Assembly (NCBI GenBank): GCA_016793015.1
Contig: JAEUJD010000074.1
Span: 1-44,465, forward strand
Length of the DNA stretch: 44,465 nucleotides
Direction: 5' to 3'
From: Phycisphaerales bacterium
GTDB lineage: Bacteria; Planctomycetota; Phycisphaerae; Phycisphaerales; UBA1924
Part shown: positions 3 through 19,005 of the stretch, one piece after another
Layout: the number at the start of each line of letters is the position of its first letter
Numbering within the stretch: position 1 is the stretch's first letter
Translations under genes and position numbers: made by a program
Notes under the pieces: model-generated
Seen by the model: only the letters and a program-made list of their open reading frames with translations
Told to the model about the DNA's origin: nothing
Database searches by the model: none

Positions 3-328
3 TGCGGCGGTGCTGGATGCGTATGGGTTCAGCGCACGGGGGATTTGCGAAGCGAAATGAGAATGGGACGAATAGGTCCAATGGGGCCGATGCGACGGAT
101 GGGACGGATGCGGCAAATGGGACTTCTGCCGCGCGCGAGGAGCGGTGGATTGGCTTTGCGAAGGCACATCGCCCGGAAGGGCGATGCCACGATGGTGTGC
201 GGCGGTGCTGGATGCGTATGGGTTCAGCGCACGGGGGATTTGCGAAGCGAAATGAGAATGGGACGAATAGGTCCAATGGGGCCGATGCGACGGATGGGAC
301 GGATGCGGCAAATGGGACTTCTGCCGCG
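3..328. repeat. 131-bp perfect direct duplication (195-bp period)
   Basis: Positions 3-133 and 198-328 are identical over 131 bp; the 64 bp between them contain a short palindrome (167-186). Each copy carries seven units of the 9-bp repeat described separately. No convincing gene lies in 1-380. Open frames through it encode only low-complexity Met-Gly-Pro or Gly-Thr-Asp runs. Confidence 0.95.
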
Positions 329-380
329 GTTGAGAATGGGAAATAGGACATCGAGGTCCGATGGGACCAATAGGGCCGAT
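65..380. repeat. 9-bp tandem repeat arrays, left flank of four-helix-bundle gene
   Basis: Units of about RGGNCNNAT are repeated in register. Seven units span 65-127 (GGGACGAAT, AGGTCCAAT, GGGGCCGAT and so on). The same seven recur at 260-322 through the duplication. A third array at 338-380 ends with AGGTCCGAT, GGGACCAAT, AGGGCCGAT. The last unit ends one base before the stop codon (381-383, minus strand) of the neighbouring gene. A matching array in the same orientation lies beyond that gene's start at 978-1013. Confidence 0.9.
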
Positions 381-950
381 TCATTTTTTTCTGGGTTGGC
401 TGTTGGCGCGGCTTCGGTATTCCAGGCGGGCTTTGGTCATGCGTTCGCGGATGCCGCCTTCTTTGATGAAGTCGGTTTCCAGGCGGCGGATCTGTTGATC
501 GAGGAGAAAGTTCGCCTGGTGGATCACGCAGATGGCGATGTTTGCGACGACGTCGGCGGGGCGGGTTTCGCAGTAGGACCGATACGTCTCGTAGGTCGCT
601 TGGGGATCACTTCCGAGCTTGCGGGCGAAGAGGGCTTCTTTGGAGTCTTTGGGCCAGAGCGCGAGATCGCGGACGCGGAGGAAATCCTGGTAGTCGTTGA
701 GCAGCTCTTCGAGGCTGGCGCGGGCGACGTTGACCAGCTTGATTTCCATCTCTTTGGAAGTGCCGGATGCCGCGGTGCCCTCGACGATGTTTTTTTTGCC
801 AGAGCGTGCGGCCTGGAACATCTGGTCGATGGTGCGGTCGCCACGTTTGAGGAAGCGCTCGCAGAAGCGGAAGGTGATGTCGTAGGCGATTTCGGCTTTC
901 TTGTAGGAAAGGAGTTCCTTGTAGTTGCCGTGTGGGGGGATGAAGGGCAT
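381..950 (-). CDS. Four-helix-bundle protein (S23/IVP type, with suffix domain)
   Basis: This 189-residue protein resembles the four-helix-bundle family first seen in intervening sequences of 23S rRNA genes and in Avd proteins of diversity-generating retroelements. Predicted helices run at about 12-37, 40-61, 64-92 and 128-160. The segment QMFQAARSGKKNIVEG (43-58) is the family's typical second helix. The part after residue 130, with an NFLLDQQIRRLE stretch and a basic tail, fits the longer 'suffix' form. There is no signal peptide. The ATG has no clear Shine-Dalgarno. The gene is not inside an rRNA gene and no reverse transcriptase is near. It lies exactly between arrays of a 9-bp repeat, the stop codon abutting one of them. 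Its role is unknown; nucleic-acid binding is an inference from relatives. Confidence 0.85.
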   Translation of the reverse strand: MPFIPPHGNYKELLSYKKAEIAYDITFRFCERFLKRGDRTIDQMFQAARSGKKNIVEGTAASGTSKEMEIKLVNVARASLEELLNDYQDFLRVRDLALWPKDSKEALFARKLGSDPQATYETYRSYCETRPADVVANIAICVIHQANFLLDQQIRRLETDFIKEGGIRERMTKARLEYRSRANSQPRKK

Positions 951-977
951 GGGGGTTCGGGACGGGGGCTGAGGAAT

Positions 978-1013
978 AGGACGTATGGGGCCTATGGGTC
1001 GTGTGGGACCTAT
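978..1013. repeat. 9-bp repeat array, right flank of four-helix-bundle gene
   Basis: Four units in register: AGGACGTAT, GGGGCCTAT, GGGTCGTGT, GGGACCTAT. They share the consensus and orientation of the arrays at 65-127, 260-322 and 338-380. The array lies 27 bp upstream of the four-helix-bundle start. Confidence 0.85.
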
Positions 1014-1047: not shown

Positions 1048-1518
1048 TTATTGGCCGCCGTACTTGGCTTGCATGAAGGCGTGGCGGGCCTTTGCTACTT
1101 CCTGAAAGGTCAGCGACCCGGCTGCCGGCCGCGCTCGAAACGCCAGAATCCCCGAGCTCATTGGGGTGCGGTTTTTGGCATCCATGACATACCACGCCCG
1201 CGTGGCATCGATCCAGCCTGTGCCGCTGAAATCCTGGACGAACCGTGCGTGCGCTGTGCCTCCCTCGTTTTCGCGATCGGCATCGAGCATGCAGCCGAGA
1301 TCGTCGTAGAGGAGGGGGCGGGCGTTCTGGATCACCACGCGGGCGGCGGCGAATTCAACATCTTCGATTGTCATGCCGCAGGAGGCGCACTGGTCGATTC
1401 CTTTTTGGATCGAGCCGATTTCTGCAGGCCGCACGATCGCGAGTGCCGCGAAACAAACCGCTCCCACGATGAAGAAGGCCATGCTGGTGACGCGATTGGG
1501 TTGGTTTGCTTGCGTCAT
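1048..1518 (-). CDS. NosL-like copper-binding accessory protein
   Basis: This 156-residue protein has an N-terminal membrane segment at about 13-29. A NosL-type domain follows, with the CxxCGM metal site (C44, C47, M49) and a second Met after DDLGC (M77). The segment FVQDFSGTGWIDATRAWYVM is typical of the family. NosL proteins bind Cu(I) outside the cytoplasmic membrane and help metallate nitrous-oxide reductase. The start at 1518 is preceded by a G-run resembling a ribosome site; an upstream in-frame ATG at 1569 would add 17 basic residues. No other nos gene is in view, so a more general copper-chaperone role is possible. The family call is firm; the physiological partner is not known. Confidence 0.8.
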   Translation of the reverse strand: MTQANQPNRVTSMAFFIVGAVCFAALAIVRPAEIGSIQKGIDQCASCGMTIEDVEFAAARVVIQNARPLLYDDLGCMLDADRENEGGTAHARFVQDFSGTGWIDATRAWYVMDAKNRTPMSSGILAFRARPAAGSLTFQEVAKARHAFMQAKYGGQ

Positions 1519-1568
1519 CAGAAGAAACCCCCTTCGCGTCAATCGCTTCGCAAAGCTGCGCGATGCCA

Positions 1569-1593
1569 CCTCCCCCTTTGGGAAAGGGGGAGG
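1569..1593. repeat. Palindromic repeat, CCTCCC family
   Basis: Perfect hairpin with 11-bp arms (CCTCCCCCTTT at 1569-1579 and its complement at 1583-1593) and a GGG loop. It resembles the C-run/G-run palindromes at 8110-8130 and 11088-11108. Confidence 0.8.
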
Positions 1594-3755: not shown

Positions 3756-6287
3756 CTATTCGCAAACGAGGGCGTTGTAGGCTTGGACGAAGAGCTGGAA
3801 ATCGGCGTCGTCGACGTAGTTGTCGTGGTTGAGGTCGGCTGGGCAGACGGGGGGGCATTCGAGGATGTTGTAGGCGACGATGAAGGTTTGGAAGTCGGTG
3901 TCGTCGACGAGGAGATCGCCGCTGAAATCGGCGGGGCAGCAGAGGATGGTCGCGAGGGCGGAATTTGTGGTGACTGCGGGGCAGGTGGATGGTGTGATTG
4001 AGGAAATCACGCAGTCGTAGCTGCCGGCGTCGGAGGGGCTGACGTTGGAGAGGGAGAGGGAGAGCGTTGTGGCGCCGGCGATGATCGTGCCGGAGGGGGT
4101 TGTGCCGTTGGCGAGATTGACTGCGTTGCGGCGCCACTGGTACTTGGTGTATTTGGTGTAGCCGAGGGCGGGCTGCGCGGTGAAGGTGAGCGAGCGGCCG
4201 CAGTTGGCGCTTGCGGGTTCTGGGTGCTGGGCGATCCAGGGGATTCCATCTGGGGACCAGCGGGCGAAGAAGTTGGATTGGATGCTGCTGACGGTGAGGG
4301 AGATGTCGCCACCGACGACGAGTTCGTTGTGATCTTCGGCGAGGGCGTAGACCTTGCCGCTGGGTTTGAGGCCGGTCACGAATTCAGAGAGAGTGGTACC
4401 GTTCCACTTTTGGAGGATGATCGCGCCGGAGGTGGTTTCGCCACCGACGAGGAGGTTGCCCTGGTAGTTGAGGAGGGCGTAGCCGTAGCCTTCGAGGGGA
4501 CCGGGAATCGGCTGCCATTCGGTGCCGGTCCATTTGGCGAGGTAGTACGAGTGGGAGTCGACGGTGAATCTGCCCGTGCCGTAGAGATCGCCGTTGAAGA
4601 TTGCGAAGGCATAGAAACTGGCGGATGGATCGCCCATGGCGTGCCAATGTTCGCCGTCCCAGCGGGCGACTCTGGATGCAGCGGTGTCGCCCGCAAAGGT
4701 GAAGGCCCCTGACACAATGAGTTCTTCTCCGAAGACGATGGCAGCCGTGACCGAGACAATATCGCCGCCGCCGTTGGTCAGGCCGGCTTCAGGCCATTCC
4801 CAACCGGAATCGCCGAGCCGAGCGATGTTTGAAAGGGGATGTCCGCCTGAAGAATCGAAACGGCCGACGGCGTGAAGCTTGCCTTGAAACGGTACGACTG
4901 AGTAGACGACGGGAGACACCGTCGGGTCGGCATACTCGAGCAACGGCGCGAGAGTCTGAAGGCTTCCATCGGACGAGAGTTCGAGCAAGCCGCCCGCGGA
5001 GTTCTTCTCGAACTCGCCGAAGATGCCTGCAACGAGGAGGCGGGATTGATCTGCCGCGAAAGAGATAATGCCGGGACGTGTGAGAAAGACCGAGTCGGGC
5101 ATTCGTGGCGCCGAGCCGATGGTTTCAAATCGCACGCCGTTCCATTGCGCGATTCTGGCGTCGTCGGCGAGGAAGCTTGAACTTGTCAGACCCCTAAATC
5201 CCTGTCCTGCGATCAACCTGCCGTTGAGATGGCCAAAGGCGCTGAGCATGCCGCCGAAGCTCTCGCTGACAGGTCCCCAGTTGAAGCCGTTGAACACGGA
5301 GATTCGTGTGGCGGAATTGCCGAAGGCGATGAGGCCAAAGCGAGTCGAAACAAGGCCGGACGGAGCAGAACCGAAAAACCCGGGCGACACGTTGCCGATT
5401 ATTTGCCAGGCGGTTCCGTCCCATTCGGCAACAGGCGCTGATCCGGTCTTCGGACGGGCGCAAAGCCGACCGCTTGGGCTTTGCGAGAGGAAGGTGTTGG
5501 ACCCAAAGGACGCCGAAACCAGATTCCAGTTTGAGCCGCTTCGCACAAAGATGCCATTTAAACTGTTCGAGTAAAGTTGGCCGCCTGCAAAGCAGAACTG
5601 TTCCGCGGGGTGGACGCTGGGGAGCGCGGCTCCGTTGATCCATGTTGCACCATCGAATGTTGCAAAGCTCGTGGGCGACGTGCTGCCAGTCAAGTAGAAC
5701 CTGCCGCAAATGATGAGTTGGCCGTCTACGACTGTTACGTCATTGACGGTGTTCGAGAAGTCCGTCCGGAACGGCGGATTGATCGACGTCCACGTCGCCC
5801 CATCGAGACGAGCGACGAAGCGCGGCTGGCCACCGATGATCAGATCGCCGAGGGCGATGAGCGAGCCGTTGAACTGAGTGATGCGTCGGACGCCGTTCAC
5901 GCCGACAAGTTCGGTCCAGCCCGCGCCGTGCCACCGATAGACACGCGCACTGTCGATTGCGTACAAGTTTGATCCGAACGCAAAGAGAGTCGGGTTCTGC
6001 AGCGGCGAGCCGAGAAACGGCGCGTTTCCTTCGGGCCTTTGCCAATTCGTTCCGTTCCAAGTCGCGATGCGGTTGACCGTGAGCGTGCCCGCCTTGGTGA
6101 ATTGTCCAGCGACAGCCAGCACTGATTGAAGTGGGCCGGAACCATCCGGGTCCCATTCCACTGCACCAGTCGGCACGCCGTTGAGGTCGGGGGTCTGCAG
6201 ACCGGAGAGCCACTGCGCGCCACACTGGGCGAAGGCTTGCGAGACGAGCGGGCAGGTCAGGGCGAGGAGGAGAGCCGCGAACTTCAT
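3756..6287 (-). CDS. Secreted beta-propeller / Ig-like protein with C-terminal dockerin
   Basis: This 843-residue protein begins with a signal peptide (MKFAALLLALTCPLVSQAFA). A long series of degenerate repeats follows, of the type 'VAGxFTxAGxxxxNRIAxWNGTxW', 'VARLDGATW', 'ARWDGEHWHAM' and 'AKWTGTEWQPI', suggesting one or two beta-propellers. An Ig-like domain lies at about 683-780 (TFTAQP...YQWRRNAVNLANGTT...SPSDAGSYDCVI). The last 61 residues are a two-repeat dockerin with paired cysteines (DFSGDLLVDDTDF...AYNILEC and DLNHDNYVDDADF...AYNALVC). The frame stays open upstream to 7718 only because it is the shadow of the neighbouring gene; the start at 6287 gives the signal peptide. The protein is probably exported and anchored or displayed through the dockerin. 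Its substrate is unknown. Confidence 0.9.
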   Translation of the reverse strand: MKFAALLLALTCPLVSQAFAQCGAQWLSGLQTPDLNGVPTGAVEWDPDGSGPLQSVLAVAGQFTKAGTLTVNRIATWNGTNWQRPEGNAPFLGSPLQNPTLFAFGSNLYAIDSARVYRWHGAGWTELVGVNGVRRITQFNGSLIALGDLIIGGQPRFVARLDGATWTSINPPFRTDFSNTVNDVTVVDGQLIICGRFYLTGSTSPTSFATFDGATWINGAALPSVHPAEQFCFAGGQLYSNSLNGIFVRSGSNWNLVSASFGSNTFLSQSPSGRLCARPKTGSAPVAEWDGTAWQIIGNVSPGFFGSAPSGLVSTRFGLIAFGNSATRISVFNGFNWGPVSESFGGMLSAFGHLNGRLIAGQGFRGLTSSSFLADDARIAQWNGVRFETIGSAPRMPDSVFLTRPGIISFAADQSRLLVAGIFGEFEKNSAGGLLELSSDGSLQTLAPLLEYADPTVSPVVYSVVPFQGKLHAVGRFDSSGGHPLSNIARLGDSGWEWPEAGLTNGGGDIVSVTAAIVFGEELIVSGAFTFAGDTAASRVARWDGEHWHAMGDPSASFYAFAIFNGDLYGTGRFTVDSHSYYLAKWTGTEWQPIPGPLEGYGYALLNYQGNLLVGGETTSGAIILQKWNGTTLSEFVTGLKPSGKVYALAEDHNELVVGGDISLTVSSIQSNFFARWSPDGIPWIAQHPEPASANCGRSLTFTAQPALGYTKYTKYQWRRNAVNLANGTTPSGTIIAGATTLSLSLSNVSPSDAGSYDCVISSITPSTCPAVTTNSALATILCCPADFSGDLLVDDTDFQTFIVAYNILECPPVCPADLNHDNYVDDADFQLFVQAYNALVCE

Positions 6288-6812: not shown

Positions 6813-8444
6813 ATGCCAAGGCCGGCCACGAATCACCAGAATCCATCCCCCACACTCACCTCGCCCGCCCCTGCAATTTTGGTGGGAACGGCACAGACGT
6901 TGAGCCTGCTGGTGGATCAGTTGCGGCTGGTGCCTGACGCACCGATCCCGGTGGGGTTTGTCGATGTCGATTCGGCGAATGGGATCGAGGGCTTGGGACG
7001 AGTCGCGCACGAGGCACACGCGACGTTGGCGATCATCTCGTTGCCTTCGGCGATGACGAAGCAGTTGGATGCGGCACGCGGCGCGGTTCGCGCGGCGGGG
7101 TTGCAGGAACGGATCGTTCCCCCACTGATGGAATTGCTGGAGCGAGCACCGACGCGGACGGACATGACGTTTGTCAAGAGCGGGCGCGAGATCGATGTGA
7201 CGGATCTGATCGGGCGCACGCCGTATGGAGTCGATCGGCGTGCGGTCGCGAGTGTGCTTGAGGGCGCGCGAGTTTTGATTACGGGCGCGGGCGGGTCGAT
7301 CGGATCGGAAATCGCGCGGATTGCGGCGACGTTCCGGCCGGGCATGCTGATCCTGATGGAGCGGAGCGAGAACGCGCTCTTTGAGATTGACCGGCAGATT
7401 GCGCGGAAGTTTCCGGATGTGCCCCGCAAGGCGCTTTTGCATGACATTGCGGATGCGGATGCGACGATGCGGCATGTGCTGGAGCTCAAGCCGGATGTGG
7501 TGTTCCATGCCGCGGCGCATAAGCATGTGCCGCTGATGGAGGATCACCCGGCGCATGCGCTGACGAACAACCTGTTTGGGACCAAGAGCGTCGCGGATGC
7601 GGCGCTGGCGTGCGGGGCAAAGCGGTTTGTGCTGATCAGCAGCGACAAGGCCGTGAACCCGACGAGCGTGATGGGCGCGACGAAGCGGCTTGCGGAGATG
7701 TACACGCAGGGCTTGCACAAGCAGGGACGCGCGGTGCGCGGGAGTGCGGCGACGAACTTCAGCATGGTGCGGTTTGGCAACGTGCTGGGGAGCGCGTGCA
7801 GTGTGCTACCAATTTGGAGCACGCAGTTAGCAGAGGGCGGGCCGATTACGGTGACCGATCCGCGGATGACGCGGTATTTCATGACGATCCACGAGGCGGC
7901 GATGCTGGTGATTCAGAGTGCTGCGATCGAGCCGGGGCCGGATGCGGCGGTGTTTGTGCTGGATATGGGCGACCCGGTGCGGATCATGGATCTGGCGATG
8001 CGGTTTGTGCGGGCGCATGGGTATGCGCCGGTGGTGAAGGGGATTGCGGGAACGAACTCGGATGTATTCGAACTTCAAATGGCCGCCGCGCGAATAAACC
8101 CACCCCCAACCCCCTCCCTCGGGGAGGGGGCTCCGGATGAAGGCATGCCGCGGATGGAAGTTGCGGTGACGGGGAAGCGGCCGGGGGAAAAGCTGTATGA
8201 AGAGCTTTGCTACGGCTCGGAGCAGTTGAGGGCGACGCCGTTCCCGGGGATCAACTCATGGGCGGGGGAACTGCGGAGTGATTTCAATTTGCCTGCGATG
8301 ATTGCGGAGCTTGGCGCGGCGCGGCAGATGATGGAGAAGGATGCGGTTGTTCGCGCGATACGGAAGCATGTGGTGGAGATGCGGGCTGTGGGGGAAGAGA
8401 TTGAGGCGCGGCCTCCGCACATGTCGCTTGAGCGCGCAGCCTGA
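6813..8444 (+). CDS. CapD/FlaA1-type nucleotide-sugar dehydratase (polysaccharide biosynthesis)
   Basis: This 543-residue soluble member of the extended short-chain dehydrogenase family acts on UDP-activated sugars (4,6-dehydratase/epimerase) for surface polysaccharide. The NAD(P) Rossmann motif GAGGSIGSE is at 158-166. HAAAHKHVPLMEDHP and SSDKAVNPTSVMGATKRLAE (276-295) follow. The usual catalytic Tyr is replaced by Met (M287, with K291), as in WbpM-type enzymes. TGKRPGEKLYEEL lies near the end. The N-terminal 150 residues resemble the CapD CoA-binding-like domain but lack membrane helices. Between the two halves of the C-terminal region, residues about 428-441 (NPPPTPSLGEGAP) are encoded by a palindromic repeat found elsewhere between genes. 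The start at 6813 is chosen by GGGAGAG seven bases upstream. The sugar product is not determined. Confidence 0.92.
   Translation: MPRPATNHQNPSPTLTSPAPAILVGTAQTLSLLVDQLRLVPDAPIPVGFVDVDSANGIEGLGRVAHEAHATLAIISLPSAMTKQLDAARGAVRAAGLQERIVPPLMELLERAPTRTDMTFVKSGREIDVTDLIGRTPYGVDRRAVASVLEGARVLITGAGGSIGSEIARIAATFRPGMLILMERSENALFEIDRQIARKFPDVPRKALLHDIADADATMRHVLELKPDVVFHAAAHKHVPLMEDHPAHALTNNLFGTKSVADAALACGAKRFVLISSDKAVNPTSVMGATKRLAEMYTQGLHKQGRAVRGSAATNFSMVRFGNVLGSACSVLPIWSTQLAEGGPITVTDPRMTRYFMTIHEAAMLVIQSAAIEPGPDAAVFVLDMGDPVRIMDLAMRFVRAHGYAPVVKGIAGTNSDVFELQMAAARINPPPTPSLGEGAPDEGMPRMEVAVTGKRPGEKLYEELCYGSEQLRATPFPGINSWAGELRSDFNLPAMIAELGAARQMMEKDAVVRAIRKHVVEMRAVGEEIEARPPHMSLERAA
8097..8130 (+). repeat. Palindromic repeat inserted in frame in a coding gene
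   Basis: This has the same start (AACCCACCCCCAAC) and hairpin (9-bp arms, TCG loop, 8110-8130) as the intergenic copy at 11075-11108. Here it lies in the dehydratase reading frame and adds about 13 residues. Confidence 0.85.
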
Positions 8445-9114
8445 AACGGAAACGAACGACGGGTGCAAGAACGCAAGCGAGAAGGATTGGACCAGGCGCC
8501 GGAATGGCGAGGGTGACGCTGTAATCTGTCCGCAGATGCGCGCCCGAGTTCAGTTCGGCGAGGTAGCGGAAGGAATACTGTCCCGGCATGAGGATGCCGG
8601 AGAACTCGATGGATGCATTTGGCCACGCATTGTCGACGTGAACGAGGTTGTTGCCGCCGATGTCTTTCAACTCGATTGCGAACAGGTCTGTGGGTCGCAG
8701 GGCGAGCGCGGAAGCGACCAGGTTGAATGGCGTATCGACATCGACCGAAAAGGTTGTGATGATCTCCACGCAAGCGCGAGCGATGGGACCCTGCAGAGCA
8801 GACACGGTTATTGGGGTGCCTCTCGCTTCAAGAGAGCCGAAGGCGGAGATGCCGGAGGCATTGATGTTGGATTCGATGCTTGCGGAAGCGTACATGACGT
8901 ACGCGATTCCCATCCATTGAACCGGACGAAGGGCGGTTCGCGTTTGCGCGAATGATCCGGTGGCGCTCGAATTGGCGGTGAAACCAGACGGCGGAAGCGT
9001 GGATCGCAGAGCGGCTATTTCTCGGAACTGTGAATGATAAATCACGGCGGCGTCGGAGCTACTTGAGAGCGCAGCGGTGACGAGGAGAGTTGCGAATGCC
9101 GCGTTGAGGCGCAT
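8284..9114 (-). CDS. Exported protein with PEP-CTERM-like segment
   Basis: This 276-residue protein of unknown function has a signal peptide (MRLNAAFATLLVTAALSSSSDAA). A beta-rich, Ser/Ala-rich middle follows, ending at about 218-240 in IPAPGPILLACVLAPVV and a basic FRFRLR cluster. That arrangement (Pro-Ala-Pro motif, short hydrophobic helix, Arg cluster) resembles PEP-CTERM sorting tails, but the chain continues for about 46 more low-complexity residues. Its 3' end overlaps the convergent dehydratase gene by 161 bp. Either the tail is real or a stop codon has been lost. The start is supported by a -35/-10 pair (TTGCCA, 17 bp, CATACT on the minus strand) ending five bases before the ATG. Confidence 0.7.
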   Translation of the reverse strand: MRLNAAFATLLVTAALSSSSDAAVIYHSQFREIAALRSTLPPSGFTANSSATGSFAQTRTALRPVQWMGIAYVMYASASIESNINASGISAFGSLEARGTPITVSALQGPIARACVEIITTFSVDVDTPFNLVASALALRPTDLFAIELKDIGGNNLVHVDNAWPNASIEFSGILMPGQYSFRYLAELNSGAHLRTDYSVTLAIPAPGPILLACVLAPVVRFRFRLRAQATCAEAAPQSLPPQPASPPHASVSREQPHPSPSSAAPRQAPQSSQAN

Positions 9115-9119
9115 GGAGA

Positions 9120-9148
9120 AGTATGCGTGATAAAAGGATGGTTGGCAA
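9120..9148 (-). promoter_or_regulatory. Sigma70-like promoter of PEP-CTERM-like gene
   Basis: On the minus strand TTGCCA (9148-9143) is separated by 17 bp from CATACT (9125-9120). Only five bases separate the -10 from the ATG at 9114, so transcription would begin at or next to the start codon, giving a leaderless mRNA. Confidence 0.6.
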
Positions 9149-9164
9149 CCCATGAATGAATTGG

Positions 9165-9247
9165 GTCGCCCCTTCAGGGCTCGGATTGGACGTATTTGCG
9201 TACCCAGGGCGTTGCCCTGGGCTTGGGCTGGGGTGCACCGTTGGTGC
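9165..9247 (+). repeat. Composite three-hairpin intergenic repeat
   Basis: Three successive perfect palindromes: GCCC-CTTCA-GGGC (9168-9180), CCCAGGGC-GTT-GCCCTGGG (9203-9221) and GCACC-GTT-GGTGC (9235-9247). The regular series suggests one mobile or repeated unit rather than chance. No gene is seen in 9115-9385 apart from this and the adjacent REP element. Confidence 0.7.
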
Positions 9248-9329
9248 GGAAGGCGGGGATCGCAAGGGCGGAGTGTGGGCGGGTTGTAGGCGGGTTGTGA
9301 AGGCGTCATGGATGTGGGGAGTGCGCAGA

Positions 9330-9355
9330 CACCGCCCGGAAGGGCGGTGCCACGA
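9330..9355 (+). repeat. REP-like palindrome
   Basis: CACCGCCC-GGAA-GGGCGGTG (9330-9349) followed by CCACGA. It is identical through 9355 to the copy at 11157-11182. It lies just upstream of the DUF1801 gene, about where a -35 would be. Confidence 0.85.
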
Positions 9356-9373
9356 AGGCGGTGGCGCTCGCGT

Positions 9374-9379
9374 TATGCT
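9374..9379 (+). promoter_or_regulatory. -10-like box six bases before start codon (leaderless candidate)
   Basis: TATGCT, then six bases, then ATG at 9386. The same hexamer with the same spacing precedes the RND adaptor gene (12834-12839). No Shine-Dalgarno is present. Confidence 0.5.
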
Positions 9380-9385
9380 CAGCGC

Positions 9386-9781
9386 ATGGCGATTCACAAA
9401 GACATCCGGGCGTACAACGCGGCGCGGGCGGCGGGCGACAAGAAGATTTGTGTTGCGCTGGCGAAAGCGATCGATGCGAATCTGAAGGGAAGCGAGTGCA
9501 AGATCTGGCACGCGCATCCGGTGTGGTTCCTGGATGGGAATCCGATCGTCGGGTATCACAAGCTGAAGGATTGCGTGCGGCTGCTGTTTTGGAGCGGGCG
9601 GTCGTTTGAGGAACCCGGGCTGGCAGACGAGGGCGGGTTCAAGACGGCGGGCGCGCGGTACACGGATGTGGATCAGATTGATGCGAAGGACCTGAAACGG
9701 TGGCTAAAGAAATCGGCCGCGATTCAGTGGGATTACAAGAACATTGTCAAGCGGAAGGGGAAGCTGGTGCGGCTGAAGTGA
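9386..9781 (+). CDS. DUF1801 (YdhG-like) domain protein
   Basis: This small 131-residue cytosolic protein shows the DUF1801 pattern. An N-terminal helical part contains ICVALAKAID. The core is CKIWHAHPVWFLDGNPIVGYHKLKDCVRLLFWSG at about 35-68. The C-terminal part has DLKRWLKKSAAIQWDYKNIV. Members have a frataxin/YjbR-like alpha-beta fold and no established biochemical role. The start at 9386 is preferred over an upstream in-frame ATG at 9308, because the stretch between is read through a REP-like repeat and a TATGCT box lies six bases before 9386. It stands alone between repeat-rich gaps. Confidence 0.82.
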   Translation: MAIHKDIRAYNAARAAGDKKICVALAKAIDANLKGSECKIWHAHPVWFLDGNPIVGYHKLKDCVRLLFWSGRSFEEPGLADEGGFKTAGARYTDVDQIDAKDLKRWLKKSAAIQWDYKNIVKRKGKLVRLK

Positions 9782-9792
9782 GAGGAAGACTT

Positions 9793-9868
9793 CAACGGAG
9801 GGGTACGGAGCGCCACGGAGAAAGGCGTTTACCACAGAGGCGCAGAGACACAGAGAAGAGAGAGGGAG
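9793..9868 (+). repeat. GA-rich ACAGAG-type dispersed repeat
   Basis: This stretch is rich in CACAGAGGC, GCAGAGACAC and AGAGAAGAGAG. A related stretch sharing GCCACGGAG lies at 10881-10980. The two flank the TolB-like gene. Confidence 0.55.
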
Positions 9869-9883
9869 TGTGTTTGTAGTGCT

Positions 9884-10825
9884 TCAGGGAAGGGGCTTCA
9901 GACCGTCGAGCGCCCAGGCGAGGTCGGCTTGCATGAGTTTGGGGCCGGAGAGATAGAGAAGTGATTTGCCATCGGGCGTGAGGGCGGGGGAGATTTCGCC
10001 GTCGGCGGTATTGATGCGGGTGATGAGTACAGGCTTGGTCCAGCGTGCTTTGTTGTCGGCGATGCCGTCCTTGGTGATGCGGAACGAAACGGCGAGTTCG
10101 CAGGCGCTGAAGGGTGCGTCTTTGGGGACGGATTGAAAAATGATGAACGAGCCGTCAGGCGGGAGGACAGGATCGGTTTCGATTTCGGGGCCATTGATGT
10201 CGCTCAGGTTGATTGGCTCGCCGTAGCCGGTTTCGGCTTTGGGGACGCACCAGAGATCGACCGAGCCTTTTCCTCCTTCGCGATCGGAGGCGAAGAAGAG
10301 GGTGCCATCGGCGGTTTCGCAGGGGTAGCCGTCGTATCCGTCGCTCGATGCTTCGGGGATGAAGCGCGGCGTCCCCCACCCGCCCCACTTCTCCCTTTGG
10401 TTGGGAACGCCCGAGGCGTCGCGCTCAACAACCCACACATCTTGCGGGATCCAGTCTTTGTCGGTGCCGGGGCGCGGACGGCTCGACATGAAGAAGAGGC
10501 GTTTGCCATCCGCGGAGAGGAAGGGCTCGTAGTCGTTGTGTTTGCCGGAGAACTCGGCGATGCGCGGGAGAGACCAGCGAGCGCCGTCGAAGGTTTGTGT
10601 GCAGATCTCCATGCGCACGCCCCCGAAGGACTCGGGGGAGCGTGGATCGCGGCGCATGAAGGCGTTGAAGACTGTGTTGCCGTCGGGGGAGAAGGTGATG
10701 CCGTTGACGGTTTCGACTTTGCCGCTTGCGAAAAGGGTGGGTTTGGGGGTGGGCTTGGGGGCGGGATGATTTTGTGCGGGCGCGGGTTGAGCGAGCGCTG
10801 CCGCGGCGAGGAAGAGAGAGATCAT
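9884..10825 (-). CDS. Exported TolB-like (PD40) beta-propeller protein
   Basis: This 313-residue protein has a short signal sequence (MISLFLAAAALAQPAPA) and a Pro-rich linker. WD40-like PD40 blades follow: ITFSPDGNTVFNAF, PFLSADGKRLFFMSSRP, GTLFFASDREGGKGSVDLW, PVLPPDGSFIIFQS and PALTPDGKSLLYLSGPK. The blades are spaced about 50 residues apart, giving five or six. Such domains occur in TolB and in many planctomycete periplasmic proteins, where they mediate binding; no catalytic residues are evident. There is no TolA/Pal cluster beside it, so it should not be called TolB. The start at 10825 gives the signal peptide. It is probably monocistronic. Confidence 0.85.
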   Translation of the reverse strand: MISLFLAAAALAQPAPAQNHPAPKPTPKPTLFASGKVETVNGITFSPDGNTVFNAFMRRDPRSPESFGGVRMEICTQTFDGARWSLPRIAEFSGKHNDYEPFLSADGKRLFFMSSRPRPGTDKDWIPQDVWVVERDASGVPNQREKWGGWGTPRFIPEASSDGYDGYPCETADGTLFFASDREGGKGSVDLWCVPKAETGYGEPINLSDINGPEIETDPVLPPDGSFIIFQSVPKDAPFSACELAVSFRITKDGIADNKARWTKPVLITRINTADGEISPALTPDGKSLLYLSGPKLMQADLAWALDGLKPLP

Positions 10826-11074
10826 GCAGGCGTGTAGCGTGAGGGGGGCTTGAGGTTGCGGGGAGAGGTCAACTCGATGGGCCACGGAGGGGAACACGCA
10901 AAGAGGCGGCGAGAGAACGCGGAGGGGCGGAGGGGGCGGAGGGTCGCGGAGAAGAGAGGAGGGAAAAGGGAGGGAGGCAAAAGCAAACCCTTCGCCCAAC
11001 CTCTTCACTCGGGGAGGGGGGTTCGGAGTTGCGCGATGTGCGCAGTTCGTATTGGCGAACGCAACGCGGCCCGA

Positions 11075-11108
11075 AACCCACCCCCAACCCCCTCCCTCGG
11101 GGAGGGGG
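11075..11108 (+). repeat. Palindromic repeat, CCTCCC family
   Basis: AACCCACCCCCAAC followed by a hairpin with 9-bp arms and a TCG loop (11088-11108). It matches the copy inside the dehydratase gene at 8097-8130. Confidence 0.85.
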
Positions 11109-11156
11109 GTTCGGAGTTGCGCGAGCTAGACGGGTTTTGAATTGACGGCGTCAAGA

Positions 11157-11182
11157 CACCGCCCGGAAGGGCGGTGCCACGA
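11157..11182 (+). repeat. REP-like palindrome
   Basis: CACCGCCC-GGAA-GGGCGGTG (11157-11176) followed by CCACGA, as at 9330-9355. It lies just beyond the stop codon of ychF. Confidence 0.85.
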
Positions 11183-11191
11183 TGGGCGCGA

Positions 11192-12295
11192 TCAGACGTT
11201 GAACAGGAAGTGGCACACGTCGGCGTCGTGCATCACGTAGTCCTTGCCTTCGATGCGCATCTTGCCGCCTTCTTTGATGGCTTTTTCGTTCTTGAATTTC
11301 TCGAGGTCGGCCACGGAGTAGATTTCGGCGCGGATGAAGCCTCGCTCGAAGTCGGTGTGGATGACGCCAGCGGCCTGCGGGGCGGTCGAGCCGATCGGGA
11401 CCGTCCAGGCGCGGATTTCCTTCGGGCCCGCCGTATAGAACGACTGCAGGCCCAGAAGTTTGTAGGCGGAGCGCGCGAGGCGGTTGAGGGCGGGCTCAGC
11501 CATGCCGAGCGACTGGAGCATTTCGAGGCGATCAGCGTCGGCGAGTTCGGAGAGCTCGCTTTCGATCTTGGCGCAGATGGGGACCCACTCGGCGCCTTCC
11601 TTCTCGGCGTGCGCCCGGACCTTCATGCAGAGTTCGTTTTCGCCGTTCACGTCGTCTTCGTCGACGTTCATCACGTAGAGGACTTTTTTGGACGTGATGA
11701 GATTGAGACCTTTGAGGACTTTCTGGTGATCGGCGTCGTCGAAGTGGACGGTGCGGGCGACCTTGCCGGCATCGAGAACGGGCTGGAGCTTCTTGAGAAC
11801 CTCGAAGCGGATGACGGATTCTTTTTCGCCGCTCTTGGCGGCACGCTCGGCCTTGCCGACTGCGCCGGAAACAACTTCGAGATCGGCGAGGACGAGCTCG
11901 GTGTTGATGGTTTCGATATCGCGGATGGGATCGACGGAGCCGTCGACGTGGGTGATGTCTTCGCCGCCGGGGGCTTTGAGGAAGCAGCGGACGACCTGAA
12001 GGATCGCGTCGGTCTCGCGGATGTGGCTGAGGAACTTGTTGCCGAGGCCGGCGCCTTCGCTGGCGCCCTTGACGATGCCGGCGATATCGACGAGGCGGAG
12101 CATCGCGGGGATGATCTTCTGCGACTCGATGTGGGAGCGGATGATCTCGAGCCGCGGGTCGGGGATGGGGACGACGCCGACGTTGGGCTCGATGGTGGCG
12201 AAGGGGTAGTTGGCGGCGAGCGCGCCCGCCTTCGTGAGGGCATTAAAGAGGGTGCTTTTGCCGACGTTGGGGAGACCGACAATTCCTGCTTCCAT
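11192..12295 (-). CDS. ychF: Redox-regulated ATPase/GTPase YchF (Obg family)
   Basis: This 367-residue protein is full length for the universally conserved YchF/OLA1 family, which prefers ATP and associates with ribosomes in stress control. The P-loop GLPNVGKST is at residues 7-15. [29 protein letters not shown] follows (switch II/G3). MNVDEDD stands at the nucleotide-specificity position, where YchF proteins characteristically lack the GTP-specific NKxD. The C-terminal TGS domain has the signature [30 protein letters not shown] and ends in DVCHFLFNV. The start at 12295 is the first residue of the family's N-terminus ([15 protein letters not shown]). There is no Shine-Dalgarno. Confidence in identity is very high. 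Confidence 0.97.
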
Positions 12296-12309
12296 GGGGA
12301 GGGAGGGTA

Positions 12310-12375
12310 GATGCAAATGGCCAAAGGGCCAAATGGCAAAGCGGCAAAGGGCCAAATTTCCAAAGGGCCAAATGA
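12310..12375. repeat. Degenerate GGCCAAATGGCAAA repeat
   Basis: Repeated CAAATGGCCAAAGGGCCAAATGG-like units fill the gap between ychF and the tRNA. They are similar in kind to 1629-1674. Confidence 0.65.
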
Positions 12376-12399
12376 AAGCGCGGATACCATGTGTGCAAC

Positions 12400-12474
12400 G
12401 CGTTCGTAGCTCAGCCTGGATAGAGCATCGGTCTTCGAAACCGAGGGTCGCAGGTTCAAATCCTGCCGAGCGTA
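12400..12474 (+). tRNA. tRNA-Arg (anticodon TCG)
   Basis: A complete cloverleaf is readable. The acceptor is GCGTTCG / CGAGCGT, with G-U pairs at 1-72 and 4-69. The D stem is GCTC/GAGC and the anticodon stem is TCGGT/ACCGA. Loop CTTCGAA gives anticodon TCG (codon CGA). The T arm is GCAGG-TTCAAAT-CCTGC and the discriminator is A. CCA is not encoded. Confidence 0.93.
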
Positions 12475-12481
12475 TTGGGAT

Positions 12482-12618
12482 AGAACAGCAGATTGGCAGA
12501 GGGAAGACCCCGCGGCTCATGGGCTTGAAGCGCCTGCGCGTTTGCGGCGGTGGGTGCCCTCGAAATCAATCGCGATTGACGTGCCGGTTTGCGCCGTTCT
12601 CTGCGAATCTGCTGTTCT
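12482..12618. repeat. Inverted repeat between two tRNA-Arg genes
   Basis: AGAACAGCAGATTGGCAGAG at 12482-12501 is the inverse of 12599-12618 with one mismatch in 20 bp. The arms enclose 97 bp with no recognisable gene. Confidence 0.8.
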
Positions 12619-12664
12619 GCCACTCAGGGGCTCTCCCCCCGCTGCTGCTCTAAACTTCTTCAGT

Positions 12665-12738
<74 letters not shown>

Positions 12739-12790
12739 TTTTGCGGGAGGCGTTCGGCCGTCGCGTATCGAAATCCCCATCCAGAGATAG

Positions 12791-12839
12791 TTGTTTGAAA
12801 CAAGCATCTGGCCGGATGCGCGTGGTACGGGTTTATGCT
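12791..12839 (+). promoter_or_regulatory. Palindrome and -10-like box upstream of RND adaptor
   Basis: A perfect 13-bp palindrome TTGTTTGAAACAA (12791-12803) could be an operator. A -10-like TATGCT (12834-12839) ends six bases before the ATG at 12846, which implies a leaderless transcript. No good -35 is visible. Confidence 0.4.
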
Positions 12840-12845
12840 TGCGGC

Positions 12846-14039
12846 ATGGCTGATGCACACTGGACCGGACGAGCGCGGGCTGTGATCTTGGCTGGAGCGA
12901 TGTTGATCGGAGTGGCGGGCTGCCGCAAGAAGGAGCAGCAGGCGGCGAGGCCGATGCAGGCACCGGAAGTGGCGGTGGAGATCGTGACGCCGGTCACGGC
13001 GCCGGGGAACTACGAGTTCATCGCGCAGACGGAGGCGTCGCGGGTGGTCGAGATCCGGGCGCGGGTGCAGGGCTTTTTGCTCAAGCGGCACTTTGAAGAA
13101 GGCGGGCAGGTGAAGGAGGGCGACCTGCTGTTCACGATCGACCCGCGGAGTTTCGAGGCGAATCTGCAGATCGCGCGGGCGCAGCTTGCGCAGGCGAAGG
13201 CGCAGATGGCGCTGGCGGAATCAAACCTGTCGCGCGTGAAGGAAGGCGTGGAGAAGGGCGGCATCGCGCAGGCGGACCTGGACAGGGCGCAGGCGCAGCG
13301 CGACGAGGCGGTTGCGGAAGTGAAACTTTCGGAAGCGCGGGTGACGAATTCGGAACTGGAGCTGAGCTACACGAAGGTGCTCTCGCCGGTGTCGGGGACG
13401 ATCGGGCGGGCGGAGAAGCAGGAGGGCGCGCTCGTGGATTCCGGGCAGAACAGCCTGCTTGCGACGAGCCAGCAGGTGGACCCGATCTATGTGAACTTCA
13501 ACGTGAGCGAGCGCGATGTGCTGAAGTGGCGGAGCGATGTCGCGACCGGGAAGATCAAACTGGTGAACGACAAGCACCTGCCGACGCAGATCACGCTGTC
13601 GGACGGGACGGTGTTTGAATCGACGGGGTCGATCAACTTCGTCGATGTGAAGGTGGATCCGAACACGGGCACGGCGATGATCCGCGCGGAGTTTCCGAAC
13701 AAGGAATCGCGGCTGCTGCCGGGGCAGTATGTGAAGCTGAAGATTCTGGGGGTGTCGAGGCCGAACGTGCTGACTGTGCCGCAGGAAGCGGTTCTGAATA
13801 CGCCGAACGGCACGTTCGTGATGGTTGTGGGCGACGACGGGAACGCGGAGCGGCGGCCGGTGACGCTGGGCGACTGGCTGGGCTCGGACTGGGTGGTCGA
13901 ATTTGGGATCAAGCCGGGCGAGAAGGTGATCGTGGACAACCTGCAGAAGGTGCAGCCGGGAAGCCCGGTGCGGATAGTGGGAACGGTGCCGGCGCCGGGA
14001 GCGGGTTCGGATGCTCCAAAGACCTTGGAGAAGAAGTGA
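12846..14039 (+). CDS. RND efflux periplasmic adaptor (membrane fusion protein)
   Basis: This 397-residue AcrA/MexA-type adaptor links an RND pump to an outer-membrane channel. The N-terminus has a lipoprotein signal with lipobox VAGC (C at about 20). The lipoyl-like half-motif EIRARVQGFLLKRHFEEGGQVKEGDLLFTID is followed by an alpha-hairpin coiled coil (about 85-165) with repeated QAQ/AQAKAQMALAES heptads. The partner half-motif LSYTKVLSPVSGTIGRAEKQEGALVDSG comes next. The beta-barrel and membrane-proximal domains follow (FPNKESRLLPGQYVKLKI...VLTVPQEAVL). The start at 12846 gives the lipoprotein signal. The pump gene begins 54 bp downstream, so the two are surely an operon. No outer-membrane factor or adjacent regulator is seen. 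Confidence 0.94.
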   Translation: MADAHWTGRARAVILAGAMLIGVAGCRKKEQQAARPMQAPEVAVEIVTPVTAPGNYEFIAQTEASRVVEIRARVQGFLLKRHFEEGGQVKEGDLLFTIDPRSFEANLQIARAQLAQAKAQMALAESNLSRVKEGVEKGGIAQADLDRAQAQRDEAVAEVKLSEARVTNSELELSYTKVLSPVSGTIGRAEKQEGALVDSGQNSLLATSQQVDPIYVNFNVSERDVLKWRSDVATGKIKLVNDKHLPTQITLSDGTVFESTGSINFVDVKVDPNTGTAMIRAEFPNKESRLLPGQYVKLKILGVSRPNVLTVPQEAVLNTPNGTFVMVVGDDGNAERRPVTLGDWLGSDWVVEFGIKPGEKVIVDNLQKVQPGSPVRIVGTVPAPGAGSDAPKTLEKK

Positions 14040-14093
14040 CCATTCGTTGATCGCGGCCGGTCGGGCGACAGATTGAAACCGAGAGGACTCTCG

Positions 14094-17000
14094 ATGTTTG
14101 CAAAGTTCTTCATCGATCGGCCGGTGTTCGCGACGGTGCTGTCGCTGCTGATCACGCTGCTTGGGCTGGTGGCGATTCAGAACCTGCCGGTTGCGCAGTT
14201 TCCGGAGATTGTGCCGCCGAGCGTGGTGATCAGCGCGACGTATCCGGGCGCGAGCGCGGAGACGGTGGCGCAGTCGGTGGCGGCGCCGATCGAGCAGCAG
14301 TTGTCGGGTGCGCGGCATCTGATCTATTACCAGAGCCAGTCGGGCAACGACGGGACGTTGAAGATCACGGCGACGTTTGAGATCGGGTCGGATCAGGATC
14401 TGGCGGCGGTGGAGGTGCAGAACCGGCTGGCGATTGCGCAGCCGCGGCTGCCGCAGGAGGTGGTGAGGCAGGGCATCACGGTGACGAAGACGTCGACGAG
14501 CATGCTGTGCGTGGTCGGGCTGCGGTCGGAGACGGGCGAGTACGACGATGTGTATCTGGCGAACTACGCGACGATCAATCTGCTGGATGCGATCAAGCGT
14601 GTGCCGGGAGTCGGCGATGCGACGATTTTCGGAGGCAAGGACTACGCGATGCGGGTGTGGGTGGACCCGGATCGGCTGACGCAGAAGGCGTTCACGGTGA
14701 CGGATCTGGCGACGGCGATCCGCGATCAGAACGCGGTGTTTCCGGCGGGGCGGATCGGACAGAGGCCCGGGCCGGCGGATCAGCAGTTGACACTGCCGGT
14801 GCTGACGCGCGGGCGGCTGGAAGATCCGCAGGATTACGAGGACATCATCCTGCGGGCGAATCCGGATGGATCGATGCTGCGGCTGAAGGATGTGGCGAAG
14901 GTTGAACTGGGAAGCCAGACGTACGACTTGTTCGGGCGGCTCGATGGAAAGCCGACGACGCTCATTCTGATCTATCTGCAGACGGGGGCGAATGCGCTCT
15001 CGACGTATGACGCGGTCGAAGCGGCGATGCGTGATGCGCAGAAGTCGTTCCCCAAGGGTGTGGAGTGGCTGATCCCGTACGACACGGTGCAGTTCATCCG
15101 CGCTTCAATGGAGAGCGTGGTGCACACACTGATCGAGGCGGGCATTCTCGTGATCCTGGTGGTGTTCATTTTCCTTCAGAGCTGGCGGGCGACGCTTATT
15201 CCGCTCGTGGCGGTGCCGGTGGCGATCATCGGGACGTTTGCCGGGATGCTGGCACTCGGGTTCACGATCAACTCGCTGACGCTGTTTGGGATGGTGCTGG
15301 CGATCGGCATCGTGGTGGATGATGCGATCGTGGTGGTTGAGAACGTCGAACGCATCATGCACGATGAGCATCTGCCCGTGCGCGAGGCGACGATCAAGGC
15401 GATGGATCAGGTGACGGGGCCTGTGATCGCGATCGTGCTGGTGCTGGGCGCGGTGTTTTTGCCGGTGGCGTTCCTGGGCGGATTGACGGGCGAGCTTTAC
15501 CGGCAGTTTGCGGTGACGATCGCGGTGAGCGTGGCGATTTCCGGGCTGGTCGCGTTGACGCTGAGCCCGGCGATGTGCCGCCTGCTGCTGAAGCCGCATG
15601 ATGGCAAGCCGAAGTTCTTCCTGTTCCGGTGGTTCAACTCGGCGTTTGATGGGATCACGCACGCGTACTCGGGCACGGTGAAAGTGGCGATTCGGCTCGC
15701 GATCGTGACGATGCTGCTCTTCGGCGGGCTGCTGTTCGTGACGTGGCGACTCTTCCAGACGGTGCCGGGCGGTTTCATTCCGGATGAAGATCAGGGCTAC
15801 ATCATCGTCGCGATGATTCTGCCGGACGGGGCGTCGATCGATCGGACGGACCGGCTGGCTTCGGAAGTTGAGAAGTTTCTCAAGGCCGATCCGAATGTGG
15901 CGCACACGGTGATGCTGGGCGGCTTTGACTTCCTGGCGGGCGGCATCAACAGCACGAACACGGGAATCCTCTTTGCGCGGCTGAAACCCTGGAACGACCG
16001 CAAAGCGCCCGACCAATCGGCGCAGGCGCTGATCGGAAAGGTGTACGGGCACTTTGCGACAAACCGGGAAGGACTGGTCCTTCCGTTCAACCCCCCCGCT
16101 ATTCAGGGACTGGGGCAGCGGGCGGGATTTGAGTTCCAGTTGCAGGCGCGCGGCGCGGGCGATGTGCGCGATCTGGCGGCGGTGAACCAGAAGTTCATGG
16201 CGGAAGCTGCCAAGCGGCCGCAGATCACGGGATTGAACGCGACGCTGCGGGTGAACACGCCTCAGCTGTTCGTGGACCTTGATCGCGACAAGGCGAAGAT
16301 GCTCGGGCTTTCGCTGACGGATGTGTTCAACTCGCTGCAGGCGTACCTGGGCGCGTTGTACGTGAACGACTTTGACAAGTTCGGACGCATCTGGCGGGTG
16401 CAACTGCAGGCCGAGCCGCAGTTCCGCAAGTCGCCGGAGTCGATCACGAACATTTTCGTTCGGAACGACAAGGGCGAGATGGTGCCTCTTTCGGGCGTGG
16501 TGAACCTGAAGCTGCAATCGGGGCCGAACACGGTGGCCCGATTCAACGGATTCCCGTCGGTGCAGATCACGGGAGCTCCGGGCGCTGGTTTCAGCACGGG
16601 CGATTCGATGCAGGCGATGCGCGACGTGGCGGCGGAGGTGTTGCCACCGGGTTATGGATACGAGTGGTCGGGCGCGAGCTTCCAGGAGATCAAGGCGGGC
16701 AATCAGGCGCCGATGGTGGTCGGGTTTGGATTGGTCGTGGTCTTCCTTGTACTCGCGGCGCAGTATGAGAAGTGGTCGCTGCCCTTTGCGGTCTTGCTGG
16801 CGGTGCCCATCGGCGTGTTTGGAGCATTGGTCGCGGTCTGGTTCCGCAACTTTCCGAACGACATCTATTTTCAGATCGGTCTGCTGACGCTTGTCGGACT
16901 TGCGGCGAAAAACGCGATTCTGATCGTGGAATTCTGCGCGATGGAAAGGGCGGCGGGGAAAGGGCTGGTTGAAGCCGCCGTGAACGCGGCGCGGCTGCGC

Positions 17001-17276
17001 TTTCGACCCATCGTGATGACGAGCCTGGCGTTCATTCTGGGCGTTGTGCCGCTTGCCATTGCACGCGGCGCGGGCGCCGCGGGCAGGCAGTCGATCGGTA
17101 CGGGCGTACTGGGCGGCATGATCGCGGCGACGTTCCTGGCGATTTTCTTCGTGCCGGTGTTCTTTGTGATCATCCAGGCTGTGTCGGAGAGGTTGTTTGA
17201 GAAGCACGGGCGGGAGAAAGGCGGGATCGCTCCCGGATCACCACCGCCGGCGGCTCAGCCGCACGTGAATCCGTGA
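14094..17276 (+). CDS. RND multidrug efflux permease (HAE1 family)
   Basis: This 1060-residue inner-membrane pump is of full AcrB/MexB length. It drives proton-coupled export of hydrophobic compounds. The N-terminus MFAKFFIDRPVFATVLSLLI is typical. The TM4 proton-relay aspartates are in GIVVDDAIVVVENVER (about 410). Twelve helices fall in two groups (about 340-560 and 865-1040) around two porter loops. The motif GGFIPDEDQGYIIV marks the second half. Near the C-terminus AAKNAILIVEFC and RFRPIVMTSLAFILGVVPLA match the family. A GAGAGGA ribosome site lies six to seven bases before the ATG at 14094. The 3' end overlaps the convergent phosphoesterase gene by 22 bp. The substrate is not predictable from sequence. 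Confidence 0.96.
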   Translation: MFAKFFIDRPVFATVLSLLITLLGLVAIQNLPVAQFPEIVPPSVVISATYPGASAETVAQSVAAPIEQQLSGARHLIYYQSQSGNDGTLKITATFEIGSDQDLAAVEVQNRLAIAQPRLPQEVVRQGITVTKTSTSMLCVVGLRSETGEYDDVYLANYATINLLDAIKRVPGVGDATIFGGKDYAMRVWVDPDRLTQKAFTVTDLATAIRDQNAVFPAGRIGQRPGPADQQLTLPVLTRGRLEDPQDYEDIILRANPDGSMLRLKDVAKVELGSQTYDLFGRLDGKPTTLILIYLQTGANALSTYDAVEAAMRDAQKSFPKGVEWLIPYDTVQFIRASMESVVHTLIEAGILVILVVFIFLQSWRATLIPLVAVPVAIIGTFAGMLALGFTINSLTLFGMVLAIGIVVDDAIVVVENVERIMHDEHLPVREATIKAMDQVTGPVIAIVLVLGAVFLPVAFLGGLTGELYRQFAVTIAVSVAISGLVALTLSPAMCRLLLKPHDGKPKFFLFRWFNSAFDGITHAYSGTVKVAIRLAIVTMLLFGGLLFVTWRLFQTVPGGFIPDEDQGYIIVAMILPDGASIDRTDRLASEVEKFLKADPNVAHTVMLGGFDFLAGGINSTNTGILFARLKPWNDRKAPDQSAQALIGKVYGHFATNREGLVLPFNPPAIQGLGQRAGFEFQLQARGAGDVRDLAAVNQKFMAEAAKRPQITGLNATLRVNTPQLFVDLDRDKAKMLGLSLTDVFNSLQAYLGALYVNDFDKFGRIWRVQLQAEPQFRKSPESITNIFVRNDKGEMVPLSGVVNLKLQSGPNTVARFNGFPSVQITGAPGAGFSTGDSMQAMRDVAAEVLPPGYGYEWSGASFQEIKAGNQAPMVVGFGLVVVFLVLAAQYEKWSLPFAVLLAVPIGVFGALVAVWFRNFPNDIYFQIGLLTLVGLAAKNAILIVEFCAMERAAGKGLVEAAVNAARLRFRPIVMTSLAFILGVVPLAIARGAGAAGRQSIGTGVLGGMIAATFLAIFFVPVFFVIIQAVSERLFEKHGREKGGIAPGSPPPAAQPHVNP

Positions 17277-18856: not shown

Positions 18857-18957
18857 GCACACCTTCCTTCGGCTCGTGGAGCTGGGACTCTGAGCCTTTC
18901 ACCGTAGCAGGCGGTGCAAGGGGGCCGATTGCCGCGGGTCGATGGGGAAAGGCAATG

Positions 18958-18987: not shown

Positions 18988-19005
18988 GCGAGTGAATGGG
19001 GCGGA

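Follow-up and report, generated by a model that had tools for sequence, protein, structure and literature searches.

A Four-Helix-Bundle Gene and Its Own 9-bp Repeat Arrays Behave as a Selfish-Element-Like System

Introduction

To our knowledge, proteins of the S23/IVP type have no settled function outside the case of the DGR protein Avd. In REP/RAYT systems (PMC2817692; PMC3116915), a gene is bordered by short repeats, often palindromic, that match its clade; many gene-less copies of the repeats lie elsewhere in the genome, and the distribution is patchy. RNase III excises the Coxiella IVS, which has been described as selfish (PMC4990558). For the family TIGR04258, which NCBIfam names '4helix_suffix' without giving a function, the literature searched held neither a mention of the family nor a description of an array association, and nothing relevant was found there on a link between S23 proteins and tandem repeats or on S23 genes in restriction-modification (RM) or CRISPR operons.

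We analyzed a 44,465-nt stretch of DNA from a Phycisphaerales bacterium (assembly GCA_016793015.1, contig JAEUJD010000074.1, positions 1–44,465; hereafter the window), in which a TIGR04258 gene (the bundle gene) is bracketed by arrays of 9-bp units. The gene and its own arrays behave as a previously unreported selfish-element-like system. Like REP/RAYT, the system pairs one gene with clade-matched short repeats, has dispersed gene-less repeat copies (for array types A and C), and is patchy. Unlike RAYT, the bundle protein is an S23/Avd-fold helix bundle in which no Y1/HUH transposase domain was found; whereas REP repeats measure 20–40 bp, those of the bundle gene are 9-bp-periodic arrays that also lie in frame within the gene, and the bundle gene, unlike REP/RAYT, is often found in defense operons. 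We refuse RAYT identity because Pfam and NCBIfam reveal no Y1 transposase domain, and refuse membership in REP/RAYT because the protein is unrelated, although REPIN-RAYT is the nearest working analogue.

With 23S rRNA IVS carrying S23p, the bundle gene shares superfamily and fold, patchiness, horizontal movement, and, in part of the cases, complementary or inverted sequences at its borders. Unlike these IVS, it lies outside rRNA and features a suffix, a loop insert, 9-bp arrays, and dispersed copies, and S23 genes that lack the suffix have no arrays. Position rules out identity with a 23S rRNA IVS, as the neighbors of the window gene are NosL and, over a contig break, DUF3800 and HsdR. The resemblance to DGR Avd lies in a matching fold (Z 11.5–12.2) and in a basic four-helix bundle, but no template/variable repeat pair was seen, and among the annotated neighbors within 4 kb of 135 bundle loci there was no recurrent reverse transcriptase cluster and no DGR.

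The Bundle Gene and Its Protein

The bundle gene is present in a single copy in the window genome (G000). It lies on the minus strand with its coding sequence at 384–950, the ATG at 950, and the stop codon at 381–383, and encodes a protein of 189 aa (P0001). The protein belongs to TIGR04258, since the suffix domain scores 83.9 bits against a curated NCBIfam cut-off of 40 and follows a TIGR02436 bundle (27.5 bits, cut-off 24). Pfam adds a weak match to 23S_rRNA_IVP (E = 4e-5), which falls under the gathering score. These are the only matches in Pfam and NCBIfam, and no catalytic domain is recognized in either; PHROGs and PADLOC contain no match to the protein.

A sequence search of the PDB returned 2gsc as the sole match at E = 0.39, which made a fold comparison necessary. 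The AlphaFold model (mean pLDDT 89.9) adopts the S23 fold and matches 2gsc with a Z of 16.1 and an rmsd of 1.8 over 113 positions, 2rld with a Z of 13.4, and the Avd structures with lower scores, including 11.5 for 4dwl. The model has the S23-type four-helix bundle by which the S23/IVP fold superfamily is defined, and the protein is basic, with a computed pI of 9.4. The preliminary description had assigned the protein to the S23/IVP type; the fold and superfamily agree with this, but the TIGR04258 suffix sets the protein apart from a generic IVP.

Profile and model together place the suffix at 411–554 (minus strand), where it comprises helix 4 of the bundle and a C-terminal helix. According to the secondary structure of the model, an insert of residues 94–131 (558–671, minus strand) separates helices 3 and 4, and this is the site at which relatives carry an in-frame 9-bp array. 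Within it, the stretch at 573–596 (minus strand) encodes TYETYRSY and, compared with the array-encoded linkers of relatives, is likely a decayed in-gene array that now falls below the array threshold. The proteins of three other loci (L053, L061, and L064) end in a four-cysteine motif, CPLCGKP...GCSGYPDCKG, which resembles a topoisomerase-type zinc ribbon and is perhaps an extra nucleic-acid-binding part.

Arrays in the Window

Arrays of the unit RGGNCNNAT had been reported at 65–127, 260–322, 338–380, and 978–1013, all in one orientation and tight on the gene. All four are present. A pattern search of the 3.86-Mb window genome for (RGGNCNNAT)x3 with at most two mismatches gave 56 matches, against none for a reversed control pattern, and arrays occurred in 0 of 720 shuffled loci. 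The fit to the gene is as close as described: the 3′ array at 338–380 (plus strand) abuts the stop codon, and the 5′ array or hairpin at 978–1013 begins 28 bp upstream of the ATG. However, the arrays at 65–127 and 260–322 (both plus strand) are not independent, but one 3′ array within a 131-bp direct duplication (3–328, plus strand) whose copies at 3–133 and 198–328 are 100% identical and spaced 195 bp, with a spacer between them. Nor does a single orientation mean much for 978–1013, which consists of about four 9-bp units and has no strand, because its unit is near-palindromic (RGGWCCYAT) and matches both strands. At the equivalent position, the relative G393 has a more perfect hairpin.

The duplicated sequence recurs on contig C191 of the same assembly, at 1–133 and, with 95% identity, at 1906–2037. 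As C191 opens with the same 133 bp as the window, the left end of the window marks an assembly break within a repeat, and the first array copy lies in this contig-end repeat. Synteny with G393 puts C191 beside the left end of the window, giving the joined order NosL, bundle gene, arrays, DUF3800, an ORF, and HsdR. The spacer of the duplication contains another REP-like repeat, the hairpin GCACATCGCCCGGAAGGGCGATG (window positions ~160–190), which is also found at C191:1944–1978 and at many further sites of G000 and its congener G398.

Association of Arrays With the Gene Across Loci

The surroundings of TIGR04258 genes were examined in a motif-free scan that scores self-similarity at each lag from 4 to 24. 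At 55 planctomycete loci, period 9 covers 3.6% of the 400 bp on either side and 0.15% of sequence farther off. Period 18 comes next, a 10-bp unit gives rise to a minor signal at periods 10 and 20, and the remaining periods are near background or confined to one or two loci. An independent set of 80 loci spans at least 10 phyla, with hosts among the Planctomycetes, Verrucomicrobia, Lentisphaerae, Kiritimatiellae, Bacteroidetes, Chlorobi/Ignavibacteria, Acidobacteria, Nitrospirae, Delta-, Gamma-, and Zetaproteobacteria, Chloroflexi, and others. Here, period 9 covers 4.9% of the upstream and 4.4% of the downstream flank as against 0.116% far away, an enrichment of about 40-fold within 400 bp, and periods 9 and 18 alone are strongly enriched.

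Whether flanking arrays are commoner beside such genes than beside random genes had been named as a check on the idea of a single gene-and-array unit. Within the same loci they are commoner near the gene, with arrays in 40 of 80 gene-centered windows but in only 6 of the 325 remaining ones (p = 1.5e-26). At the single threshold used throughout, arrays go undetected in half of these 80 loci, some of which carry weaker ones. The association also depends on the suffix, as arrays accompany 14 of 35 loci that have it (coverage 3.4%) but only 1 of 31 TIGR02436 loci that do not, where coverage is at background (0.12%).

The arrays lie upstream of, downstream of, or inside the bundle gene. Their units vary by locus (ATRGGNCNN, AARGGACNN, GATCNGWCG, TGGACNNNR, GTCNGACCN, the 10-bp GTCCGTGNNN, and others), and a GTCC/GGAC or GTC/GAC core is common to most. 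Arrays inside the gene are in frame between bundle and suffix, which in the AlphaFold model corresponds to the loop between helices 3 and 4. Each of the seven upstream array pairs that were classified is inverted, so the upstream side tends toward a hairpin. Pairs of one upstream and one downstream array, 17 of them direct and 13 inverted, do not form consistent terminal inverted repeats and leave a single long stem enclosing the gene, in the style of an IVS, unsupported. A universal rule that two adjacent unit positions are variable was dropped, as it is true of just 40 of 111 arrays.

Unit Type and Protein Clade

The type of repeat unit follows the protein clade and not the host. On a tree of 44 proteins with eight unit types, built with the linker columns removed, unit type changes 12 times, compared with a mean of 26 in 200 shuffles, none of which was as low. 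Type C corresponds to one fully supported protein clade from genomes of five families, and the same is true of type F. Type B is likewise one clade, extending over Desulfobacteraceae, Thiocystis, Kiritimatiellae, and Planctomycetes, provided that locus L193 is counted, the unit of which is a close type-B variant (AAAGAC/AAGGAC). Genomes with several bundle genes (G324, G256, G145, and G386) contain several unit types, each with its own clade.

Dispersed copies agree with this assignment. Matches to dispersed type-C arrays number 299 in G145, 57 in G324, 33 in G256, 17 in G386, and 7 in G284, all of which carry a type-C gene; a further carrier, G130, has just two type-C arrays, both beside the gene. 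Thus, dispersed type-C arrays are found in five of six type-C carriers, compared with 2 of 24 non-carriers (5 matches in G061 and 1 in G127; p = 8e-4). Of all the evidence for a single system of gene and repeats, this correspondence in type is the strongest.

Dispersed Copies and Co-occurrence in Genomes

In the window genome, arrays lie at about a dozen sites and accompany one bundle gene. Dispersed arrays were counted by pattern search in a phylum sample of ~390 genomes, most of them draft MAGs. Among 41 relatives, the gene is present in 4 of 5 array-rich genomes (at least 20 matches) and in 2 of 36 others. In the phylum sample as a whole (392 genomes), the gene is present in 16 of 44 array-positive but 14 of 348 array-negative genomes (p = 2e-9). 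Because some array matches lie in or beside the gene itself, the comparison at five or more matches is cleaner, and here the gene occurs in 6 of 7 genomes and in 24 of 385 others. The arrays are thus mainly found in gene-bearing genomes and not widely without the gene, with the exception of the congener G398, in whose 94% complete assembly 62 array matches but no bundle gene were detected. Dispersed copies are few or absent in G130 and in much of family f49.

Of 40 dispersed sites, 21 are intergenic, often between convergent or tandem genes, and the rest fall within called ORFs, although the gene calls are crude. In G000 and G398, the copies are often palindromes of 36–45 bp with ends like GAAATAGG...CCTATTTC. 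Hairpin stability is not a universal property of dispersed arrays, as z lies below −3 in 16 of the 40, mostly those of G000 and G398. An intergenic array on C191 in G000 is missing from the matching intergene of five congeners, while two further G000 arrays have orthologs in G398, and one orthologous hairpin pair differs in unit number. Insertions with clean target duplications or exact ends were not seen in these comparisons, which involve species-level relatives with fast-changing intergenes.

Together, the association, its dependence on the suffix, and the tracking of clade by unit type uphold the earlier proposal of one unit: neither of the two comparisons that might have overturned it did so, and a functional or evolutionary unit of gene and arrays is very probable.

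Genomic Neighborhood and Patchiness

The bundle gene is patchily distributed over at least 10 bacterial phyla and variably absent in relatives. At the window locus, a NosL-like gene (1048–1569, minus strand; Pfam NosL 2.7e-12) is a conserved neighbor and is followed by the bundle gene in both G000 and G393. In G398 and G395, the NosL ortholog is instead followed by a frame that by eye is hsdM-like. The interval after NosL forms a variable island within the genus (8134–19000 of locus L231 in G398; 445–8110 of L233 in G395), with these hsdM-like frames in two genomes and HsdR and DUF3800 in G000.

When the ORFs within 4 kb of 135 loci were clustered, the leading recurrent neighbors were mainly defense families: HsdM/HsdS (19 loci), Cas1 (15), Cas4 (12), Cas8c and Cas7 (11 each), Cas5 (10), Cas2 (9), and a ResIII/HsdR-type helicase (6), together with an ABC-transporter-type cluster (8) as the main non-defense neighbor. 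With few exceptions, nearby members of these families lie on the same strand as the bundle gene, and ~30 of the 135 loci have recurrent same-strand neighbors of type I-C cas or type I RM systems. The family is absent from phage records, occurs on one plasmid, from Prevotella nigrescens, and is found on 1 of 2.9 million viral contigs; given this near absence, the bundle gene is not chiefly carried by phages or plasmids.

Type I-C operons of family f49 illustrate the patchiness. The gene lies between cas7 and cas4 in G153, G328, G258, G422, G239, G275, and G429, between cas4 and cas1 in G308, and at both junctions in G070, while the operons of G334, G195, G427, G358, G217, and G382 are without it. 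In G248 (locus L310, ~1300–1500), the bundle gene is reduced to a decayed remnant immediately upstream of an intact cas4. A single array in several of these operons provides the bundle gene with its stop codon and cas4 with its start codon. G153 retains a broken fragment of the cas4 5′ end upstream of the bundle gene, and its working cas4 starts with array-encoded codons, as though the gene had come in through recombination within cas4. Type I-C operons appear to have an insertion hotspot at the 5′ end of cas4 (L304 in G153, L305 in G328, and L306 in G334), with truncated 5′ copies of cas4 upstream of the inserted gene, which is the bundle gene in G153 and another gene in G334, and with a new N-terminus for cas4. 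The gene inserted in G334 resembles, by eye, a DUF1016/YhcG nuclease.

Proposed Mechanism and Alternative Explanations

The best explanation, at a probability of roughly 0.55, is that a single-copy 'manager' gene keeps and spreads a dedicated family of 9-bp-periodic repeats, a proposal modeled on REPIN-RAYT. The repeats maintained by this gene would be short and often hairpin-forming. The basic S23/Avd-fold protein, probably a pentamer like its solved relatives, would bind its own array type in the form of an RNA or single-stranded DNA hairpin and, together with a host enzyme or one supplied in trans, may promote array copying and re-insertion. As the protein has no recognized catalytic domain, array insertion would need such another enzyme. 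Further points that weigh against this explanation are the gene-less but array-rich G398, the half of the 80 loci in which arrays stay below the threshold, the scarcity of dispersed copies in G130 and much of f49, the failure to see insertions with clean target duplications among the species-level relatives compared, and the inconsistent orientation of upstream and downstream arrays. Because the period is a multiple of three, arrays can occupy reading frames without a frameshift. The bundle gene itself would move mainly through horizontal transfer and recombination of host operons. A more far-reaching proposal, which we hold tentatively, is a new class of mobile-repeat system without a recognizable transposase, in which the S23/Avd-fold protein drives templated array building and dispersal, for example by presenting hairpin RNA or single-stranded DNA to a host polymerase or to a reverse transcriptase acting in trans, and the system rides in transcribed operon junctions, chiefly those of defense operons.

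It seems unlikely that nothing is mobile and that the arrays are binding sites through which a regulator or nucleoid-type bundle protein controls its own gene and regulates or organizes the genome. The basic protein and the arrays near the start and stop of its gene would suit such a role, and translational control is conceivable where an array spans the bundle stop and the cas4 start. However, the dispersed arrays are not concentrated at promoters, with 21 of 40 intergenic and the rest in ORFs by crude calls, and their large copy numbers and lineage-specific presence fit spread better than a conserved regulon. Doubtful to a somewhat greater degree is a passive association, whereby another enzyme (such as a RAYT or reverse transcriptase) or replication slippage generates the arrays, and the gene either favors sites rich in arrays or at operon junctions or is tolerated there. 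A protein with no recognized catalytic domain and the gene-less arrays of G398 are what this would lead one to expect, yet passive preference would not yield unit types that track the protein over the host, with several types inside one genome, and dispersed copies match the type of the clade.

The gene could also be an accessory to defense or anti-defense that serves CRISPR-Cas or restriction operons, with arrays as by-products, which is improbable. While the ~30 of 135 loci with cas or RM neighbors and the proximity of hsdR in G000 point this way, most loci have no such neighbors, PADLOC gives no match, close relatives with an intact cas4 have no copy of the gene or a decayed one, and its position varies between junctions within one operon type. 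There is next to no likelihood of an ordinary minisatellite expansion for which the repetitive coding linker (TYRTYR...) of the gene served as the seed: the linker is indeed an in-frame 9-bp array in many members, but flanking arrays are present where the linker has none, slippage does not produce the inversion seen in seven of seven upstream pairs, and copies are dispersed genome-wide.

Since repeat type tracks protein clade in different phyla, a nucleic-acid partner can be predicted for each protein, and the function of S23/IVP proteins becomes directly testable with cognate and non-cognate arrays. If the manager-gene explanation is true, it would add a further repeat-plus-gene system unrelated to RAYTs and would account for the 9-bp hairpin repeat families of Planctomycetes, Verrucomicrobia, and further phyla. 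That the gene is found within CRISPR-Cas and restriction operons is relevant to the way in which defense operons serve selfish genes as a means of transfer.

Other Repeats in the Window Genome

Contig C191 (locus L129) contains two further repeated sequences. A coding-like stretch at 5130–5435, within an ORF that has no Pfam match, has many copies of 67–77% similarity across genomes of the genus. A short CTCTGTGCCTCTGCGTCTCTGTGG-like element at 5524–5555 recurs in dozens of places in these genomes and constitutes a separate dispersed repeat. In the window itself, positions 12313–12372 hold a period-8/23 tandem repeat, CAAAGGGC (TRF score 78), that is unrelated to the 9-bp arrays.
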